Virus record (IMG/VR): IMGVR_UViG_3300007513_000123
Span: 1-32,010 of that record
From: a virus
Direction: 5' to 3' (one strand)
DNA length: 32,010 nt
Shown here one piece after another: positions 24,894 through 32,010 of the stretch (position 1 is the stretch's first letter; every line of letters starts with the position of its first letter). The notes below the pieces were generated by a model. It was not told the origin of the DNA and did no database searches. It saw only the letters and a program-made list of their open reading frames with translations. The position numbers and the translations under genes are program-made.

Positions 24894-27764
24894 ATGTCAG
24901 TAAAGAGATTTAAATTTGTTTCGCCCGGAGTGTTTATTAATGAAATTGATAACTCTCAACTCCCGCGAACCCAAAACAAGTTAGGACCAGTTATTATTGG
25001 ACGCACATTACGAGGACCAGCAATGCGTCCCGTAACAGTTGAGTCCCAGTCAGAATTCGTAGAGATGTTTGGACAACCCCAGCCCGGTGGTGTTGCTAAC
25101 GATGTTTGGCGTGAAGGTAATCTTCAATCACCAATGTACGCGACTTATGCTGCGATGTCATACCTAAGAAACAATGGTCCTGTTACTATGGTCCGCTTGT
25201 TGGGTAACAACCATGAAGATGCGACCGGCGCAGGCGAAGCAGGTTGGTCAGTCGCGAAAGAGGCTTACGGACTCTTTCTTTGGGATTCCGGCGCCGCACA
25301 CAATCCAGCGACTCCAGTAACTGGTACATTGGCGGCTGTTTTCTACAGCAAGCTAGGTGCGCCGGTACTTAAAGGTCCTGCGCGAAGTGGCTCCGCAGAC
25401 AATATGACTCACGTTAGCGGTACCGGTGGTGCTATTAAAAGTGTTGGCGACGACCGAGAGTTTATGATGACGATTTGGAATACAGCCGCAGGTTCTACTG
25501 CCGCTGTTAGTAAAGATATTACGACTTCATTCAACTTTAATAAAAGATCAAGCAAATTCATTAGAAAGGTGTTTAATACAAATCCGGCTCTTTTAGACGC
25601 AACTAGTATTGCAGCAGAGAACCGAAAAGATTATTTCTTGGGTCAAACCTTTGAGAATACCCTTGTTGATTACCTAGGTAATTCAGATGCAGGCTCTGTT
25701 CTTGGAATAGTTGCTCCACTACGCGAAAAGTCTGGTGGCTCCAATAGAGCAGGTAATGATTTCCGTATGGCTGCAACTGCTGGAACCACTGGCTGGATCT
25801 TTTCTCAAGACTTGACCGCTGATTCTGGCTCTTTTGCGCCTGCCTTATCAGATGCCGGTGCCGTAACTGGTGGTGTAGATAAACTATTTAAAATTCATGC
25901 ATTGAACAGCGGCGAGTGGGAATCTAAAAATCTTAAAGTTTCTATTCGCGACATCAAGTATGCACGAAACCCAGAAGAGAATCCGTATGGAACGTTCACC
26001 GTTGAGGTGCGTAGAGTACAAGATTCTGATATTTCACGTCAAGTTGTAGAATCATTTTCGAATTGCAATTTGAATCCCTCTTCACCAAATTACATTAAAA
26101 GAAAGATTGGTGATCAATCACTAAGCTGGAATGAAACGGAACGCCGTTACACATATCAAGGGGATTACGAGAATAATTCTCGTTTTATTCGTATTGAAAG
26201 CTCTGAAGATTTGGACGCCGCCGCGTTAGATCCCCAGTGCCTACCGTTCGGCTTCTTTGGTCCGCCGAAGTTGTCGTCTGTCAACCTTGCAGGTAACAAC
26301 GACGTCACTTGTCCAGCGAATGTACTGTTCAATGTAACAACTTCTGATGTCGATTCACTGGCTCCAGCAGGAAACAAGTTCAAAGCCTATGATGAAATCG
26401 AGTTGCAGCTTGATTTTCCTGAGTGCCCAATTCGAAAGAATAGTGCTTCTGGCTCCCTTTCTAACAGAAAGCAAGCCTATTGGGGAGCATATACACAAGA
26501 GCCAAGCAACGATAAGACAACTAACGCTTCTTGGGGCGACCACATGTATCCTCTCCCTGATTCACTTGGTACAGATAGTGATCTAGTAGAGGCATCCTGT
26601 TGGGCATTTTCGCTTGATGATATTAAGTTGAGCGGATCGAATAATGCCGATGCTCTCTGGGCAGCAGGTAACCGCAAGGCGAACGATTCTATCAGTGTGA
26701 CCTCCAGTTGGAGCGGCACATTGGACCAGGGTTGTGATAAATTTACAATGCCGCTGTGGGGTGGTTTTGACGGTCATAACATTAATGTACTTGATCCGTA
26801 TGCTCCAGATGTTGTAATGGCATCAGACTCCACAGACAAGACCGATTCTTCGTTCTACTCCATCAAGAAAGCAATTGATGCTTGTTCTTCGCAGGAAGAG
26901 GTTGAATTTAATTTGATGGCAATGCCAGGAATCACACACCGAGTACTCAATCGCCACATGGTAGACGTTTGTGAATCCCGTGGTGATGCACTGGCAGTGT
27001 TGGACATCGCAGGGGGCTATAAACCCCGCGCTAACCGCTCTGCGGGTGACGCTTTTAGCTCATATGGCGGTACGGTTGATGCTACTCTTGACGAGATTGA
27101 TGAGCTACAAATTAATTCAAGTTATGCTTGTACTTATTATCCTTGGGTGCAAATTAAGGATTCCGCCACCGACGCTGTTCTGTGGTCACCTCCTTCGGTT
27201 GTTGCACTTGGTACTTTCGCTAGTTCCGAGAGGAAATCAGATGTTTGGTTTGCCCCAGCCGGTTTCACTAGGGGTGGACTGACAGAAGGTTCAGCGGGCA
27301 TGCCAGTACTTGGTGTTCGAGATCGCCTCACTGCAAAAGATCGTGACGATCTATATGCAGCTAGGGTCAATCCGATTGCCAGCTTCCCGGCAGAGGGTAT
27401 TGTAATCTTTGGTCAAAAGACAATGCAGGTAACAGCTTCCGCTCTCGATAGGATTAATGTCCGTCGCTTGATGATTTACGTCAAGAAAGAGATTTCGCGA
27501 ATGGCTGCAACCACACTTTTCGAGCCGAACGTCCAAAGAACTTGGTTTAACTTTACTTCAAGAGTTGAGCCTTTCCTTCAGGGCGTCAAGGCAGGTCTAG
27601 GACTGGAAGACTTTAAGGTTGTGTTGGATGAAACCACAACCACACCAGACTTGGTTGATCGTAACATTATGTATGCTAAGATCCTCCTGAAACCAACAAA
27701 AGCTATTGAATATATTGCGATTGACTTCGTGATTACAAATAGTGGAGCTTCTTTCGAAGATTAA
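24894..27764 (+). CDS. gp18: Tail sheath protein (gp18-like)
   Basis: 956 residues against 659 in T4. The N-terminus FVSPGVFINEIDNSQLPRTQ (8-27) followed by LGPVIIGRTLRGPAMRPV is the classical start of contractile sheaths. The C-terminal domain (from about 845) has ALDRINVRRLMIYVKKEISR, a WFNFTSRVEPFLQ block and a final strand IEYIAIDFVITNSGASFED, the parts that join neighbouring subunits in the sheath. The extra length lies in the middle and probably forms surface domains. Sheath subunits contract to drive the tube through the envelope. The start ATG follows AAGGAG. A hairpin with a short T-rich tail follows the stop. Confidence 0.93.
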   Translation: MSVKRFKFVSPGVFINEIDNSQLPRTQNKLGPVIIGRTLRGPAMRPVTVESQSEFVEMFGQPQPGGVANDVWREGNLQSPMYATYAAMSYLRNNGPVTMVRLLGNNHEDATGAGEAGWSVAKEAYGLFLWDSGAAHNPATPVTGTLAAVFYSKLGAPVLKGPARSGSADNMTHVSGTGGAIKSVGDDREFMMTIWNTAAGSTAAVSKDITTSFNFNKRSSKFIRKVFNTNPALLDATSIAAENRKDYFLGQTFENTLVDYLGNSDAGSVLGIVAPLREKSGGSNRAGNDFRMAATAGTTGWIFSQDLTADSGSFAPALSDAGAVTGGVDKLFKIHALNSGEWESKNLKVSIRDIKYARNPEENPYGTFTVEVRRVQDSDISRQVVESFSNCNLNPSSPNYIKRKIGDQSLSWNETERRYTYQGDYENNSRFIRIESSEDLDAAALDPQCLPFGFFGPPKLSSVNLAGNNDVTCPANVLFNVTTSDVDSLAPAGNKFKAYDEIELQLDFPECPIRKNSASGSLSNRKQAYWGAYTQEPSNDKTTNASWGDHMYPLPDSLGTDSDLVEASCWAFSLDDIKLSGSNNADALWAAGNRKANDSISVTSSWSGTLDQGCDKFTMPLWGGFDGHNINVLDPYAPDVVMASDSTDKTDSSFYSIKKAIDACSSQEEVEFNLMAMPGITHRVLNRHMVDVCESRGDALAVLDIAGGYKPRANRSAGDAFSSYGGTVDATLDEIDELQINSSYACTYYPWVQIKDSATDAVLWSPPSVVALGTFASSERKSDVWFAPAGFTRGGLTEGSAGMPVLGVRDRLTAKDRDDLYAARVNPIASFPAEGIVIFGQKTMQVTASALDRINVRRLMIYVKKEISRMAATTLFEPNVQRTWFNFTSRVEPFLQGVKAGLGLEDFKVVLDETTTTPDLVDRNIMYAKILLKPTKAIEYIAIDFVITNSGASFED

Positions 27765-27842: not shown

Positions 27843-28355
27843 ATGGCTGAAAAATTTTGGACAGACTCAACCGCCGAGCCAAAAAGAGCGTATCGATGGA
27901 CAGTTCTTCTGGGAACGGATAGAAACAATCTAGCTCACTTTGTGGCGAAGAAGGTTACAAAGCCCAGTTTCACGGTGACTGAAACCGCGCATTCATATCT
28001 AAATCACAAGTTTTACTATCCCGGTAGATTGGAGTGGAACACTGTTACGCTAACGTTGGCAGATGCGATATTCCCAAACTCCGCTGAGGTTGTACGAAAT
28101 ATGTTGGAAGATTCCGGTTACCACATTCCAGATCGTGGTAACTATGCTACAATTGGTAAAAACAAGTCCGTAGGTGCATTGGGAGTTGTACAAATCACCC
28201 AGCATGATTCAGACGGAAACCCAATTGAATATTGGAAGCTACATAATGCTTGGATAAAAGATGCTAAGTTTGGCGATCTCGACTATGAGTCTGATGATAT
28301 GCTTGAAGTCGAGTTGGAAATTCGTTACGACTACGCTGAACTAGTTCAGGCTTAA
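27843..28355 (+). CDS. gp19: Tail tube protein (gp19-like)
   Basis: 170 residues, nearly the T4 gp19 length (163). Tube-family features are AYRWTVLLG (20-28), KKVTKPSFTV (about 41-50), the YYPGRLEWNTVTLTLAD block (about 63-79) and the C-terminal strand pair AWIKDAKFGDLDYESDDMLE (about 140-159) ending in VELEIRYDYAEL. It forms the inner tube through which DNA passes. It follows the sheath gene as in T4 and has an AGGAG site. The spacer behind it (28356-28431) is AT-rich and holds only an imperfect element, ACTATTTTATT at 28356. Confidence 0.93.
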   Translation: MAEKFWTDSTAEPKRAYRWTVLLGTDRNNLAHFVAKKVTKPSFTVTETAHSYLNHKFYYPGRLEWNTVTLTLADAIFPNSAEVVRNMLEDSGYHIPDRGNYATIGKNKSVGALGVVQITQHDSDGNPIEYWKLHNAWIKDAKFGDLDYESDDMLEVELEIRYDYAELVQA

Positions 28356-28431: not shown

Positions 28432-29292
28432 ATGTCAAGGAATAATGAAGCTCGCACTGGGGCAACCCCCGCAGCGGACACCCCACCAGAGCAAATGCTC
28501 TCCACAGCAGCCGAGGAGAGTCCCTCTCCAATGCAATTTACTACTCCAACCGAGTTTGTTGATTTACCGTCAAGAGGTCGTTTTTACTCCGAGGATAGTA
28601 CACTCCATGGAAAAGAAAGTATTGAAATTCGCTATATGACGGCGAAGGATGAAGATATTTTAACATCAAAATCCCTGTTAAAGAAGGGACTAGCAATCGA
28701 TCGACTCCTCCAGAACATTCTGGTTGACAAAACGATTCGTTTAAGCGATATGTTAATTGGCGATAAGAACGCTTTAGTGGTCGCTGCCAGAATCTCTGGC
28801 TACGGAAGTGAATACAACACTAAAGTAACTTGCCCTGCGTGCTCACTAGTGCAACAATATGAATTTGATCTAGACGAGCAGGAGATTATTGAAGGTGGGG
28901 ATAGTTTGAATGCCACTCCCACTGGCAATGGCACGTGGGTGGTAGACTGTCCTAAATCTGGTGTTAAGGTTGAAGTGCGACTTTTGACAGGAGCAGACGA
29001 GAAATGGTTAACCACAACACAGGCAAATCGAAAGAAGAATAAGCTTCCGGAATCGACCGCAACGGATCAACTTAAACTGATGATCAAATCAGTGAATGGT
29101 GATGAGAAACAGGCATCTATTAATAAATTTATTAATTCAATGCCCGCTCAGGATGCAAGATTTGTGCGATCCGCATACGAAGAACTAATGCCCGATATTG
29201 ATCTGTCGCAGCATTTTGACTGTCAAGAGTGTGGATTTGACATGGACATGGAGGTTCCGTTCACAACGGACTTTTTTTGTCCTAAGCGATAA
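28432..29292 (+). CDS. gp26: gp26-like baseplate / tail assembly protein
   Basis: 286 residues. After a Pro/Ala/Glu-rich N-terminus comes FVDLPSRGRFY (42-52) and IEIRYMTAKDEDILTSKSLL (64-83), the signature I know from T4 gp26-type baseplate-hub proteins of marine myoviruses. C134/C137 (CPAC) and C264/C267 (CQEC) could bind one zinc. The gene starts after AGAGGTG. Its last codons read through a run of seven T (29272-29278), and an open frame in the +1 phase continues downstream to 29485. It lies between the tube gene and the tape measure gene, where non-T4 tailed phages encode frameshifted tail-assembly chaperones, so a chaperone role is a real alternative to a hub subunit. Confidence 0.78.
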   Translation: MSRNNEARTGATPAADTPPEQMLSTAAEESPSPMQFTTPTEFVDLPSRGRFYSEDSTLHGKESIEIRYMTAKDEDILTSKSLLKKGLAIDRLLQNILVDKTIRLSDMLIGDKNALVVAARISGYGSEYNTKVTCPACSLVQQYEFDLDEQEIIEGGDSLNATPTGNGTWVVDCPKSGVKVEVRLLTGADEKWLTTTQANRKKNKLPESTATDQLKLMIKSVNGDEKQASINKFINSMPAQDARFVRSAYEELMPDIDLSQHFDCQECGFDMDMEVPFTTDFFCPKR

Positions 29293-29485
29293 GTACGTTG
29301 AAAGCGTATATGAACAGATTTTTCTCTTAAAGCACCACGGCGGCTGGAGCTTTGTTGAAGCATATAGTCTCCCAATACAGATTCGTCACTGGTTTGTTCG
29401 TCGTTTAAGTAAACAATTCGAGCAAGAAAAAGCAGAGATGGATAAGGCTAAAGCGAAAGCCCAGTCCCAAGCAAAGAGAAAATGA
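29270..29485 (+). CDS. Downstream frame of the tail-assembly pair (gp51-like), probably reached by frameshift
   Basis: About 70 protein-like residues in the +1 phase relative to the gp26-like gene: VLSDKYVESVYEQIFLLKHH, GGWSFVEAYSLPIQIRHWFV, then a Lys/Ala/Glu-rich coiled end. The part before 29270 in this frame (formal starts ATG 29198, GTG 29231, TTG 29237) is only an out-of-phase shadow of the upstream gene. No good ribosome binding site precedes any of those starts, and no ATG, GTG or TTG follows until near the end. So independent translation is unlikely and a shift on the T run is the simplest route, giving a fusion of about 350 residues. The sequence recalls short gp51-type hub-assembly proteins of marine T4-like phages. 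A terminator follows directly. Confidence 0.62.
   Translation, partial: TFFVLSDKYVESVYEQIFLLKHHGGWSFVEAYSLPIQIRHWFVRRLSKQFEQEKAEMDKAKAKAQSQAKRK
29272..29278 (+). other. Candidate programmed frameshift site (seven T run)
   Basis: In the upstream frame the codons are GAC TTT TTT TGT. A +1 slip or a -2 slip of the Phe tRNA keeps perfect TTT pairing and enters the downstream frame. A -1 slip would reach TAA within two codons. The zero frame itself ends four codons after the run. Confidence 0.5.
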
Positions 29486-29489
29486 TATA

Positions 29490-29514
29490 AGGGCGCTATC
29501 CGGCGCCCTTTTTT
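29490..29514 (+). terminator. Rho-independent terminator after the tail-assembly genes
   Basis: Seven-base-pair GC-rich stem AGGGCGC (29490-29496) with GCGCCCT (29503-29509), loop TATCCG, then a run of T. It starts four bases after the stop of the downstream frame. Confidence 0.88.
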
Positions 29515-29567: not shown

Positions 29568-29906
29568 GTGTCAGAAGAGCAAAAAGATTTAACCCCTATA
29601 GTAATTGACTTAAACGCTGCCAAATCTGGCGAGCTAAAAGAATTCAATCCGTTGGCTATGCTTAAACATGGCGTTGGAGCCCTATTATCTATGATGTTCG
29701 GAGGCTCCGCTGTGCCTGTGAAACTTAGAGGGTCAAAAAGCGATGTAAAAGCATTTGCCAAGGCTTTGGGGAATGAGAAGAGATATATCGACGCCTATAG
29801 AAAGTATGGTCTTAATGACGCAAGAACATATAAAAACAAATATAAACTCAATAATGCTATTAAGGATTTCAATAAAAAGACGGGCTTGAAATGGCCATTT
29901 AAATAA
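29568..29906 (+). CDS. Small conserved-type protein preceding the tape measure gene (GTG start)
   Basis: 112 residues, start GTG with TTGGAG upstream; there is no ATG in a better place. The N-terminal half has VIDLNAAKSG and a short hydrophobic stretch, LKHGVGALLSMMFGGSAVPV (about 32-51). The C-terminal half is basic and helical: VKAFAKALGNEKRYIDAYRK and YGLNDARTYKNKYKLNNAIK, ending in KKTGLKWPFK. I recall this C-terminal pattern from small proteins next to tape measure genes in marine phages, without a known function. A role as tape-measure partner or chaperone is plausible from position alone. The next gene starts 18 bases after its stop. Confidence 0.65.
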   Translation: MSEEQKDLTPIVIDLNAAKSGELKEFNPLAMLKHGVGALLSMMFGGSAVPVKLRGSKSDVKAFAKALGNEKRYIDAYRKYGLNDARTYKNKYKLNNAIKDFNKKTGLKWPFK

Positions 29907-29924: not shown

Positions 29925-32010
29925 ATGGCTGATGATCAAATTAAAAACGCGGAAAGACTCGCTGATTTACAATCGCAGGAAGAAATTCGTTTAAAAAATA
30001 TAACGAAAGCCGAAGAGGCGCGCTCCGTAGTACTTCAGAATCAAGTGGGAATGCTGAAAGAGATGGAGAAAGCTGTTATGGCGCTCCAAGCAGCGGGGGA
30101 TGATGCTCTCAAAGCTGAGGAACAAGCAGTCGAAGCAGCCAATGGCAGACTCCAGACACTTTTGCAGATTGGTACTGCAAGCAAGGAAGAGATTGAGTAC
30201 GCACGAACCCTTTTAGGTGAAGCCGAAAATCAATTGACAGCGCGCCAAGAGCTTAGGGATGTTAGCTTAGATGCCATAACTGAAGAACGTACCGGCAGAG
30301 AAAAAATTTTAGAGAAGCATGAGAAAGAGCTTGAATTAAAAGACAAGTTAAATTCCAAGACACAACAGATTTTGTCGGCAATGACCGGTATCGATGATAT
30401 GGCTAAGAACACGGTTATAGGACAGTTCTTTGCAACGGCACAGGCAATTGGGTTTGTTGGTGCCTTAGCACAGGTCGGCGCTGCCATGAAATCGGTCTTC
30501 ACAATGACTAATATTTTAGGCTCCGCTGGCATCGGGCTTGCCTTTTATTTGATGAAAAACGCATATGCGGCAGAAGCGGCACGTGCTGAATTCAACGCAA
30601 CTACTGCTGCTGCCGGAGCGTTCGACGCTCAGATTGTGAACAGCACAGCGCATATGAAGAGTCTTGGTATGGATACGAAAGATTATGCCAATGCGCTGGG
30701 ATCGCTGCGGAATAACATATCCTTTTTTGCCGACTTGCCCGATCACGGTGACGCATTAGCCAAACTAAATGCACAAATGGGTAAACTTGGTGTTGATCAA
30801 GCTGCGCTAAATTCATTGCAGGAATTTGAGCATACGCTCGGCGGCGGCAATGTCGAAGAGTTCACTCTCAATCTCCTTGGCGCCTCAAAAGCTATTGGTA
30901 TGGACTTGAATAAGGTTGTTGCTAATGCCTCGCAGCATATGAATAAATTTGCAGTTTATGGTGATCGAGCGAAAGAAGTTTTTATAGGAATGCAATCACA
31001 TGCAAAGAAACTCGGCGCCGAAATCAGTGATTTAACAGACATAACAGATCAATATAACACGGTTAGTGGCTCGATTGCTGCTGCCGCAAAATTAAATATG
31101 GCACTCGGCGGCGCTTATATCAATGCAAATAAAATGAGAGGTCTTTCGGACGAACAGAGAATTGTAGAAATCAAAAGGGCAATCGAAGCCTCCGGTCAAA
31201 GTATAGAGACAATGAGTGTTGAGTCAAAACGTCGTTTTATTCAACTATCGGGAATTAAAAATGAAGCTTTGGCATTAAAAATGCTAGGCAAGACAAAGGC
31301 TGAAGAATTAAAAAAAGCGTCTGACGGCGCCATCGCCGCGACGGCATCCCAAGACGAACTAAACAAGGCGACGGAGAGTTCTCTAACGCCAATGCAAAAG
31401 CTGGCAACGTTGTTTTCTGACCTTCTTGCAGTCGTTAAACCAATCATCGATGGTTTGCACTGGGTCGCCGATGGAATGAAATCAATTTTTGGTGGTGGGT
31501 TCTGGGCGGGTCTTGGAACAATGGCTAGTCTATGGGCGGGTTATAAGCTTGCAGTTTGGGCTGTGGTAGCAGCAAAGACCGCATTTATGACTCGGATAAT
31601 TGGGTTGTGGCCATGGCAGGTAAAATCCGCTGCCACAACAGCGCTAGACGCAGGAGCACAAAAGGATGGTGCCGTCTCTACAGAACTAAATAATGCAGCA
31701 AAATTGAAGGGTACTCCTATTACACAAGCATTCGGCGCCGCAGCCTCGATGAGCGCGGGACAGATTCTGGCAATGGGCGCCGCTCTACTGTTTGCTGCGA
31801 TCGGCATTGGGATCATTGTTGGTTCTTTAGCATTATTGGCTATGCAAATGAAAGAGATGTCTGTTGGTCAGATGGCTATGTTTACAGGAGTCATTATAAC
31901 TATTGGACTTGTTCTGAAAATGCTGATTCCTGTTTTCGCAGCTAACGCAGCAGCAGCATCAGCAGCAGCCGGTGCTTTTACACTACTGGCAATTGCTGCA
32001 TCAATGGCAG
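29925..32010 (+). CDS. Tape measure protein (3' truncated by window end)
   Basis: At least 695 residues; the frame is open to the last base. The start is ATG 29925 (MADDQIKN); an ATG at 29921 stops after three codons. The N-terminal 140 residues are a charged coiled coil (KAEEARSVVLQNQVGMLKEM and onward). A hydrophobic region follows (FFATAQAIGFVGALAQVG and ILGSAGIGLAFYLM), then a long helical part rich in Ala/Lys. Further membrane-like segments come after it (GGFWAGLGTMASLWAGYKLA, LLFAAIGIGIIVGSLALLAM, MFTGVIITIGLVLKMLIPVF). Coil plus several hydrophobic helices, large size and position after tube and tail-assembly genes are typical of tape measure proteins, which set tail length and help DNA cross the inner membrane. 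It is already longer than T4 gp29 (590). Confidence 0.85.
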   Translation, partial: MADDQIKNAERLADLQSQEEIRLKNITKAEEARSVVLQNQVGMLKEMEKAVMALQAAGDDALKAEEQAVEAANGRLQTLLQIGTASKEEIEYARTLLGEAENQLTARQELRDVSLDAITEERTGREKILEKHEKELELKDKLNSKTQQILSAMTGIDDMAKNTVIGQFFATAQAIGFVGALAQVGAAMKSVFTMTNILGSAGIGLAFYLMKNAYAAEAARAEFNATTAAAGAFDAQIVNSTAHMKSLGMDTKDYANALGSLRNNISFFADLPDHGDALAKLNAQMGKLGVDQAALNSLQEFEHTLGGGNVEEFTLNLLGASKAIGMDLNKVVANASQHMNKFAVYGDRAKEVFIGMQSHAKKLGAEISDLTDITDQYNTVSGSIAAAAKLNMALGGAYINANKMRGLSDEQRIVEIKRAIEASGQSIETMSVESKRRFIQLSGIKNEALALKMLGKTKAEELKKASDGAIAATASQDELNKATESSLTPMQKLATLFSDLLAVVKPIIDGLHWVADGMKSIFGGGFWAGLGTMASLWAGYKLAVWAVVAAKTAFMTRIIGLWPWQVKSAATTALDAGAQKDGAVSTELNNAAKLKGTPITQAFGAAASMSAGQILAMGAALLFAAIGIGIIVGSLALLAMQMKEMSVGQMAMFTGVIITIGLVLKMLIPVFAANAAAASAAAGAFTLLAIAASMA

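Follow-up and report, generated by a model that had tools for sequence, protein, structure and literature searches.

A Conserved +1 Frame at the End of a T4 gp26-Like Gene Points to a G/GT-Type Tail Assembly Chaperone Pair in Phages

Introduction

Does a small open frame that overlaps the end of a gp26-like gene belong to that gene, being reached by a ribosomal frameshift? This question was raised by the window, the whole stretch of 32,010 nucleotides analysed here (IMG/VR virus record IMGVR_UViG_3300007513_000123), in which a T4-type head and tail module was identified with a gp23-like capsid protein, a long sheath protein, a tube protein and a gp26-like protein. In the accessible part of a review on the T4 tail, gp26 and gp51 are described as hub assembly chaperones, and gp51 is called essential, with a function that is unknown (PMC3004832). 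There, gp51 is also stated to be required for assembly yet absent from the particle (PMC3004832). In the available portion of a recoding review from 2016, G-T frameshifting is called conserved "except T4" (PMC5009743). No paper linking gp26/gp51 to G/GT was found by title or abstract opening, in a search outside of which most subscription journals remained. The accessible text of the PRFect paper mentions neither baseplate nor gp26 nor cyanophage, and baseplate is likewise absent from that of the GeneTack paper. As outlined below, the locus very probably codes for a G/GT-type tail assembly chaperone pair via a +1 frameshift, for which neither a fusion peptide nor reporter data are available.

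Loci and Scope of the Counts

Relatives of the window gp26 were taken as the best 80 from a scan of viral contigs, and two further scans contributed at least 100. Together with 10 records of named or uncultured phages, one more contig and the window, these scans form the near-clade set of 192 loci, of which 187 contain a complete gp26 gene and five lack the gp26 stop. The cyanophage-type set consists of at least 160 loci from two scans, four annotated cyanophages and two contigs close to phage phi-Grn1, the group of which, Schizotequatrovirus, we take to be the KVP40 group. Scans of viral contigs with the gp26 proteins of XacN1, SP-15 and phi-Grn1 gave 0, 1 and 2 loci, respectively. A genome scan gave eight loci in MAG records, and the tail was in the +1 frame in all four that were inspected (L195, L199, L200 and L201).

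All locus counts describe near relatives of seven queries and named phages, among the matches listed. The 141 junctions of the +1 type, which are +1 by selection, and the 147 of the cyanophage type are distinct junctions from which identical ones were removed; contigs of the same phage were merged only if their junctions were identical (L091 and L193 are both SP-15). The tail profile was iterated on the same loci on which it was tested; the profile built from the seed only already matched 180 of them at E<0.01.

The Locus in the Window

The following features were assigned, all on the + strand:

27843..28355, +, tail tube gene, the upstream neighbour (phrog_4542, E 2.5e-29)
28432..29292, +, gp26-like gene, putative short (G-like) product of 286 aa with two zinc-ribbon-like CxxC pairs
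28432..29485, +, predicted frameshift product (GT-like) of 350 aa by a +1 shift, inferred from the conservation of frame and slip site
29272..29278, +, run of seven T (T7) with the putative slip site, conserved in relatives
29275-29277, +, putative P-site slip codon TTT, followed by T29278
29278-29280, +, frame-0 A-site codon, TGT in the window
29279..29485, +, +1-frame tail domain (T-like, gp51-like), 68 codons and stop, homologous to cyanophage gp51
29489..29510, +, terminator-like stem-loop of 9 pairs and then a T-rich tract, directly 3' of the tail-domain stop
29925..32009, +, probable tape measure gene, still open where the window ends, assigned solely from its position and length

By its sequence, the gp26-like protein is a member of the T4 gp26 family PF12322, which it matches with an E value of 5.3e-14 (52.9 bits, above the curated cut-off of 24.5); it also matches the baseplate hub family phrog_150 (E 8e-17). 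In frame 0 the gene ends with GAC TTT TTT TGT CCT AAG CGA TAA. As the original prediction had claimed, the gene thus stops just after seven T, and a protein-like +1 frame without stop codons continues until 29485, its 68 codons after the slip spanning 29279-29482. Further points of that prediction were also borne out, namely the terminator immediately behind the second stop and the exclusion of a -1 slip in the window, where TAA is met at once. Terminator-like sites were found four times in 1701 bases, compared to 1.6 expected from shuffles (sd 1.5). The tail domain matches PF20546 (DUF6760) only below threshold (E 0.0011; 19.4 bits, with the cut-off of 27 not met).

The long open reading frame 29925..32009 was without a convincing family match in searches with phrog and PF profiles; at the equivalent position a tape measure protein is annotated in Listeria phage LIS04 and Flavobacterium phage immuto. 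The neighbours of gp26 are not tube and tape measure genes everywhere, since they differ in P-SSM2, T4 and others. An open reading frame of 112 aa with a GTG start (29568-29906) separates the terminator-like stem from the presumed tape measure gene; it gave only a weak match to a tape-measure profile (E 0.1). The sheath protein (24894-27764) is long, with 956 aa, and has its sheath domains toward the C-terminal side.

The Second Frame in Relatives

In 184 of the 187 loci listed with a complete gp26 gene, the tail profile matched at E<1e-3, in 180 cases in the +1 frame and in four in the -1 frame. The arrangement predicted from the window alone is the one found in 180 of the 184 loci with a tail match, which exceeds what chance would give. 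The remaining three (RAS14, XacN1 and Atu_ph07) have a weak match (E 0.01-0.1) in the -1 frame. Isolates with a +1 tail are Microcystis phage Mel-JY01, Flavobacterium phage immuto, Bacillus phage SP-15, Listeria phage LIS04 and Streptococcus phage GXN1. Among these five, a coding sequence covering the tail frame from the junction on is annotated only for Mel-JY01; for immuto and SP-15 a shorter one lies inside the frame, and for LIS04 and GXN1 there is none. One locus of the near clade, L010, has GAT in place of GAC and so contains eight T, with its tail in the -1 frame; judged from its sequence, the direction of the shift seems to have been switched there at an unchanged site.

Tails in the -1 frame were also identified in other lineages. 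RAS14 and XacN1 contain the heptamer U UUU UUU and have no start in reach, and Atu_ph07 contains U UUU UUC. For Prochlorococcus phage P-SSM2, gp26 and a gp51 of 57 aa in the -1 frame are annotated, with U UUU UUC at the end of gp26. Desulfovibrio phage 7757 has a -1 heptamer and no start in reach, while in Rhizobium phage RHph_I1_9 the heptamer is U UUU UUG and the gp26 stop is overlapped by an ATG. The heptamer is absent from Vibrio phages D531 and 207E48.1 and from Aeromonas phage phiA8-29. The tails of the two types are homologous, with an hhalign probability of 96 and an E value of 4.7e-9 for one pair, and the -1 tail profile matches 24 of 138 +1 tails at E<1e-3. The -1 relatives at the same site imply that the direction of the shift changes while its place stays.

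The Putative Slip Site

The predicted slip codon, which is the second of two Phe codons, is TTT in 137 and CTT in three of the 141 distinct +1 junctions; the remaining one, L084, is diverged, with TTT-CTA at the slip place by eye. The base after it is T in 137 junctions, and the next codon is TGG in 134, with TAC in two members that have lost the Trp; the window is counted among the 141. Elsewhere in the same genes, TTC accounts for 335 of 1327 Phe codons (25%). On the protein tree, no synonymous change between TTT and TTC was counted at the slip codon, compared to four at the preceding Phe codon, which serves as an internal control, and 11, 15, 17 and 19 at four other conserved Phe columns.

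The preceding Phe codon is TTC in 14 of the 141 junctions, giving TTC-TTT-TGG, and the three CTT members read TTT-CTT-TGG. Since the preceding Phe may be TTC, the conserved feature is the four bases YTT-T and not the length of the run. The conservation of the T run that the original prediction had expected thus holds for the four slip bases, whereas the run as such is broken to TTC-TTT-T or TTT-CTT-T in some relatives; a missing run had been named as refuting, and the broken runs do not refute the shift because these four bases are retained.

At the cyanophage and KVP40-like junctions listed, U UUU UUC is present in register in 146 of 147; the exception, L378, is without the heptamer and has an odd gp26 end. 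Five different codons precede the heptamer, all ending in T. The wobble bases of the three heptamer codons are invariant in 143 of 143 gp26 genes, a count that leaves out L231, L307, L308 and L378; in the same genes, ten other Phe columns had 5 to 31 changes, and the median over 63 other columns was 25. In both the +1 and the -1 type, a putative slippery site is conserved in register at the junction. This conservation, together with that of the frame, strongly supports the proposal that the gp26-like and the gp51-like frame are joined by a frameshift.

Alternatives to a +1 Shift

The second frame might instead be a separate gene with its own start, for which the rare AUU, AUA or CUG would also be possible, or be translated by reinitiation after the gp26 stop. 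In the window, the +1 frame was inspected between its preceding stop and the 20th codon after the slip. As ATG, GTG or TTG it contains there only three TTG and one GTG, located 35-74 nt 5' of the first of the two Phe codons, in agreement with the claim that a credible start is missing; these codons lie in the tail frame and could still serve a separate gene. An own ATG for the tail is clear in L183, L188 and L086, start codons overlap the gp26 stop in Vibrio phages D531 and 207E48.1, and at 122 of the 146 cyanophage-type junctions with the heptamer an in-frame ATG is present, so that coupled initiation could coexist with a shift. Against this stand 35 of 141 +1 junctions in which no ATG, GTG or TTG occurs between the preceding stop and the 12th codon after the slip. 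Of the 146 junctions of the cyanophage type, 20 likewise have none in reach (24 lack an ATG). Starts in the +1 frame are also not constant in position, the commonest being a TTG at -56 in 32 of 141. A second conserved frame that overlaps the gp26 3' end without a conserved start was thus identified from the aligned junctions. A separate start would moreover explain neither the invariant wobble bases of the slip codons nor why the +1 frame is conserved as far back as the T run. The expectation that relatives lack a separate start stood for these 35 junctions and failed for L183, L188, L086 and the two Vibrio phages; the latter do not refute the shift because none of those named is among the 80 nearest loci, nor do the cyanophage ATGs, because the invariant heptamer is retained besides. 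A separate start is considered unlikely, and a shift remains the preferred reading.

The original prediction had left the direction open as +1 or -2. A -2 shift of the Mu-like kind is permitted by the T7 run, on which tRNA-Phe could pair again two bases back, and would give a product with one extra Phe. In the 14 junctions with TTC and the three with CTT, however, the tRNA would be mismatched on UCU or UUC after such a move, while pairing after a +1 move is kept in all variants. These variants narrow the direction to +1, so that only this half of the prediction was upheld, and a -2 shift is judged improbable.

Slippage of RNA polymerase on the T run, yielding mRNAs one U short, would fit the seven-T run present in most members of the +1 type. 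The frame arrangement is kept with only TTTT or with a run broken by C, however, and the -1 relatives keep the exact codon register and not merely the length of a run. The retention of YTT-T is as expected if the tRNA in the P site moves by +1, and it fits neither a -2 re-pairing nor slippage of the polymerase, which we regard as very improbable.

That the frame break is an error of sequencing or assembly, to which homopolymers are prone and for which the difference at base 29280 between the window and the nearly identical contig L002 could be quoted, is refuted by a +1 break at the same place in independent contigs and in the isolates Mel-JY01, immuto and SP-15, and a homopolymer error is not the explanation because L002, which differs from the window at 4 of 5858 aligned bases, shares the T7 length.

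At base 29280 the window has T and L002 has G (TGT compared to TGG), the T changing the Trp codon of a conserved FFWP motif to Cys; it remains undecided whether this is a variant or a sequencing error.

For the preferred +1 shift, no stimulator was identified in general. Shine-Dalgarno-like sequences were not enriched at the +1 site (12 of 141 sites, with 88 of 705 for the control windows). Folding of the sequence downstream of 24 sites likewise showed no structure in general (mean z -0.1, single-base shuffles), with four of the 24 having a z of -3 or lower. In the absence of both, we infer that ribosomes probably slip only rarely, as would be required for a chaperone pair. An upstream hairpin of 16 nt (29256-29270 in the window), with -2 kcal or lower in 71 of 141, was not accepted as a part of the site.

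T4 gp26 and gp51

In T4, genes 26 and 51 are divergent. PF12322 matches both proteins over nearly the whole profile (8e-65 for gp26 and 1.8e-53 for gp51), and the two match each other with E values of 4e-6 by blastp and 9e-6 by phmmer in a three-protein database. With 249 aa, gp51 is 41 residues longer than gp26 (208 aa). The -1 tail profile matches gp51 at 207-246 with 18.5 bits, compared to 9.7 for the best of 3000 gp51 shuffles. Among long paralogues it gives E values of 1e-11 for 44RR, 5e-6 for a Slopekvirus phage, 4e-4 for T4 and 6e-3 for an Acinetobacter phage (Z=1000), and it has no match in the short paralogues of the same four phages. The +1 tail profile alone fails to reach T4 gp51, and the link runs via the -1 tails. 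By these profile matches, the C-terminal domain of T4 gp51 is homologous to the +1-frame tail via tails of the -1 type. Hence T4 gp51 is, on sequence evidence alone, a gp26 paralogue with the tail domain fused in frame. Both protein domains, the frame and the slip site are conserved, and the paralogy in T4 is likewise shown by the sequences.

In the Slopekvirus phage phiKp_23 (Klebsiella phage, L303), a long and a short gene of the gp26 family lie in tandem on the same strand with a 4-base overlap. This is as expected from a duplication, and the tandem is a possible intermediate behind T4 gp26 and gp51. In all nine other phages examined, including phi-Grn1 of the T4 family, PF12322 identified a single gene, and it identified one each in P-SSM2, SP-15, Atu_ph07 and XacN1. 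It found no gene in Mel-JY01 and immuto, the gp26 of which rests on tblastn, which means that single-copy counts can overlook divergent copies. T4 gp28 was tried as a homologue of gp26 or of the tail and gave no significant match.

Predicted Fold of gp26

The gp26 sequence had no match among the described tail assembly chaperone (TAC) families, and no solved relatives were found by sequence below E 0.1. An AlphaFold2 model of the window gp26 from 60 sequences reached a pLDDT of 87 and a pTM of 0.79. With Foldseek, no match of the model to the PDB was obtained at E<0.001 (2ob9 had E 1.4). After re-alignment of the Foldseek top 1000 with VIA-align, by which 996 chains were ranked, the first three were all tail assembly chaperones, namely 3klu (YqbN; Z 5.9, rmsd 5.5 over 91), 2ob9 (HK97 gp13; Z 4.6, rmsd 4.2 over 95) and 5ir0 (Z 4.3, rmsd 5.5 over 82), with the next row at Z 2.6. 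According to the accessible parts of the sources, YqbN is a tail assembly chaperone (PMC9603447) and 5ir0 a chaperone of PLE1 (PMC12987554). The predicted gp26 fold thus appears to resemble tail assembly chaperones; Z scores as modest as these can be due to chance, and it is the shared identity of the top three that is informative.

The suggestion in the original prediction that gp26/gp51 and G/GT may be the same kind of system has therefore gained support from the -1 sites of cyanophages, the chaperone matches of VIA-align and the paralogy of gp51.

Proposed Mechanism

Most ribosomes would end at the gp26 stop and yield the G-like product. While tRNA-Phe sits on UUU (29275-29277) in the P site and a presumably slowly read codon, UGG or here UGU, is in the A site, a minority would move ahead by one base (from UUU U to UUU) and translate 68 codons in the +1 frame, giving gp26 with the tail as the GT-like product. 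If the parallel to lambda holds, the tape measure protein would be coated by the G-like form, and tube subunits would be brought in through the tail domain of the GT-like form. That ribosomes slip here, how efficiently they do so, the ratio of the fusion and the roles on tape measure and tube are inferred.

The same two-protein output may be reached by -1 slippage at U UUU UUC in cyanophages, KVP40-like phages and the Desulfovibrio phage, by a separate coupled start in a few T4-type phages and by gene duplication in T4, with gp26 as the short and gp51 as the long form. If true, gp26 and gp51 are the short and long tail assembly chaperone, for which many relatives use recoding and T4 uses duplication. 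This would also account for cyanophages S-CAM22, ACG-2014a and S-MS29, in which the start of the next coding sequence is annotated about 50-90 nt past the gp26 stop, inside the conserved domain.

Contractile Injection Systems

Two samples of bacterial genomes, of 299 and 369, contained 2 and 3 genomes, respectively, with DUF6760 above cut-off, one of them shared. In the four loci examined (L391, L392, L396 and L397), it lies in the -1 frame of a small upstream chaperone-like gene; L393-L395, with DUF6760 below cut-off, are outside this count. The appearance of the four loci as injection-system clusters was judged only from neighbouring open reading frames. Just before the stop of the small gene a heptamer of the -1 type is present, GGGAAAG in L391 and GGGGGAG in the other three. 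In the DUF6760 frame, L396 has no ATG, GTG or TTG and L391 none near, while L392 has an ATG and L397 a TTG; L391 was judged from its codons and L392 from its translation. Two of the small proteins were compared to gp26 and gave weak scores of 8.6 and 4.2 bits (shuffle maximum 6.8); among the Pfam chaperone families, the best match was that of one of these proteins to Mu gp41, below threshold (E 0.07).

With only four loci and weak chaperone homology, the G/GT scheme may extend to contractile injection systems. We consider it likely that T4-type tails and at least part of the contractile injection systems share one ancestral chaperone gene of the G/GT type, and that T4 is no exception, gp26 being G and gp51 being GT. 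In this widest reading, the two outputs would be obtained by +1 in the clade of the window, by -1 in cyanophages, KVP40-like phages, several giant phages and the injection loci bearing DUF6760, by coupled genes, or, for T4 and its close relatives, by duplication.

Comparison with Known Systems

Like lambda G/GT, the locus combines a short and a predicted frameshift-extended protein from one gene, which lies between the gene for the tube and the one presumed here to encode the tape measure protein; no start is conserved in the frame of the tail domain. It differs in the direction, which is -1 in lambda and is predicted to be +1 here, at the putative slip site YUU-U-GG, and in the first protein, which belongs to PF12322, has zinc-ribbon-like motifs and falls into no described TAC family by sequence.

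The +1 site of prfB, the gene for release factor 2, is CUU-UGA-C. Both sites have YUU in the P site followed by U, with slippage to the overlapping UUU, and the TTT-CTT-TGG variants resemble the prfB site. In contrast to prfB, the A-site codon is the sense codon UGG and not the stop UGA, and a Shine-Dalgarno-like element is not found upstream. The window clade adds a putative +1 slip site at a sense codon which is conserved across a large phage group.

For HSTV-2, a very likely +1 G-T frameshift is given in the available part of the recoding review (PMC5009743). It is likewise a tail gene of a myovirus with a presumed +1 shift, and differs in belonging to a haloarchaeal virus; no sequence comparison was made.

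With T4 gp26 and gp51, the locus shares the PF12322 family, and the C-terminus of gp51 matches the tail family via tails of the cyanophage type. In T4 the two are divergent genes, and gp51, a gp26-like body with the tail, needs no frameshift. This suggests that T4 keeps the short and long pair as two separate genes.
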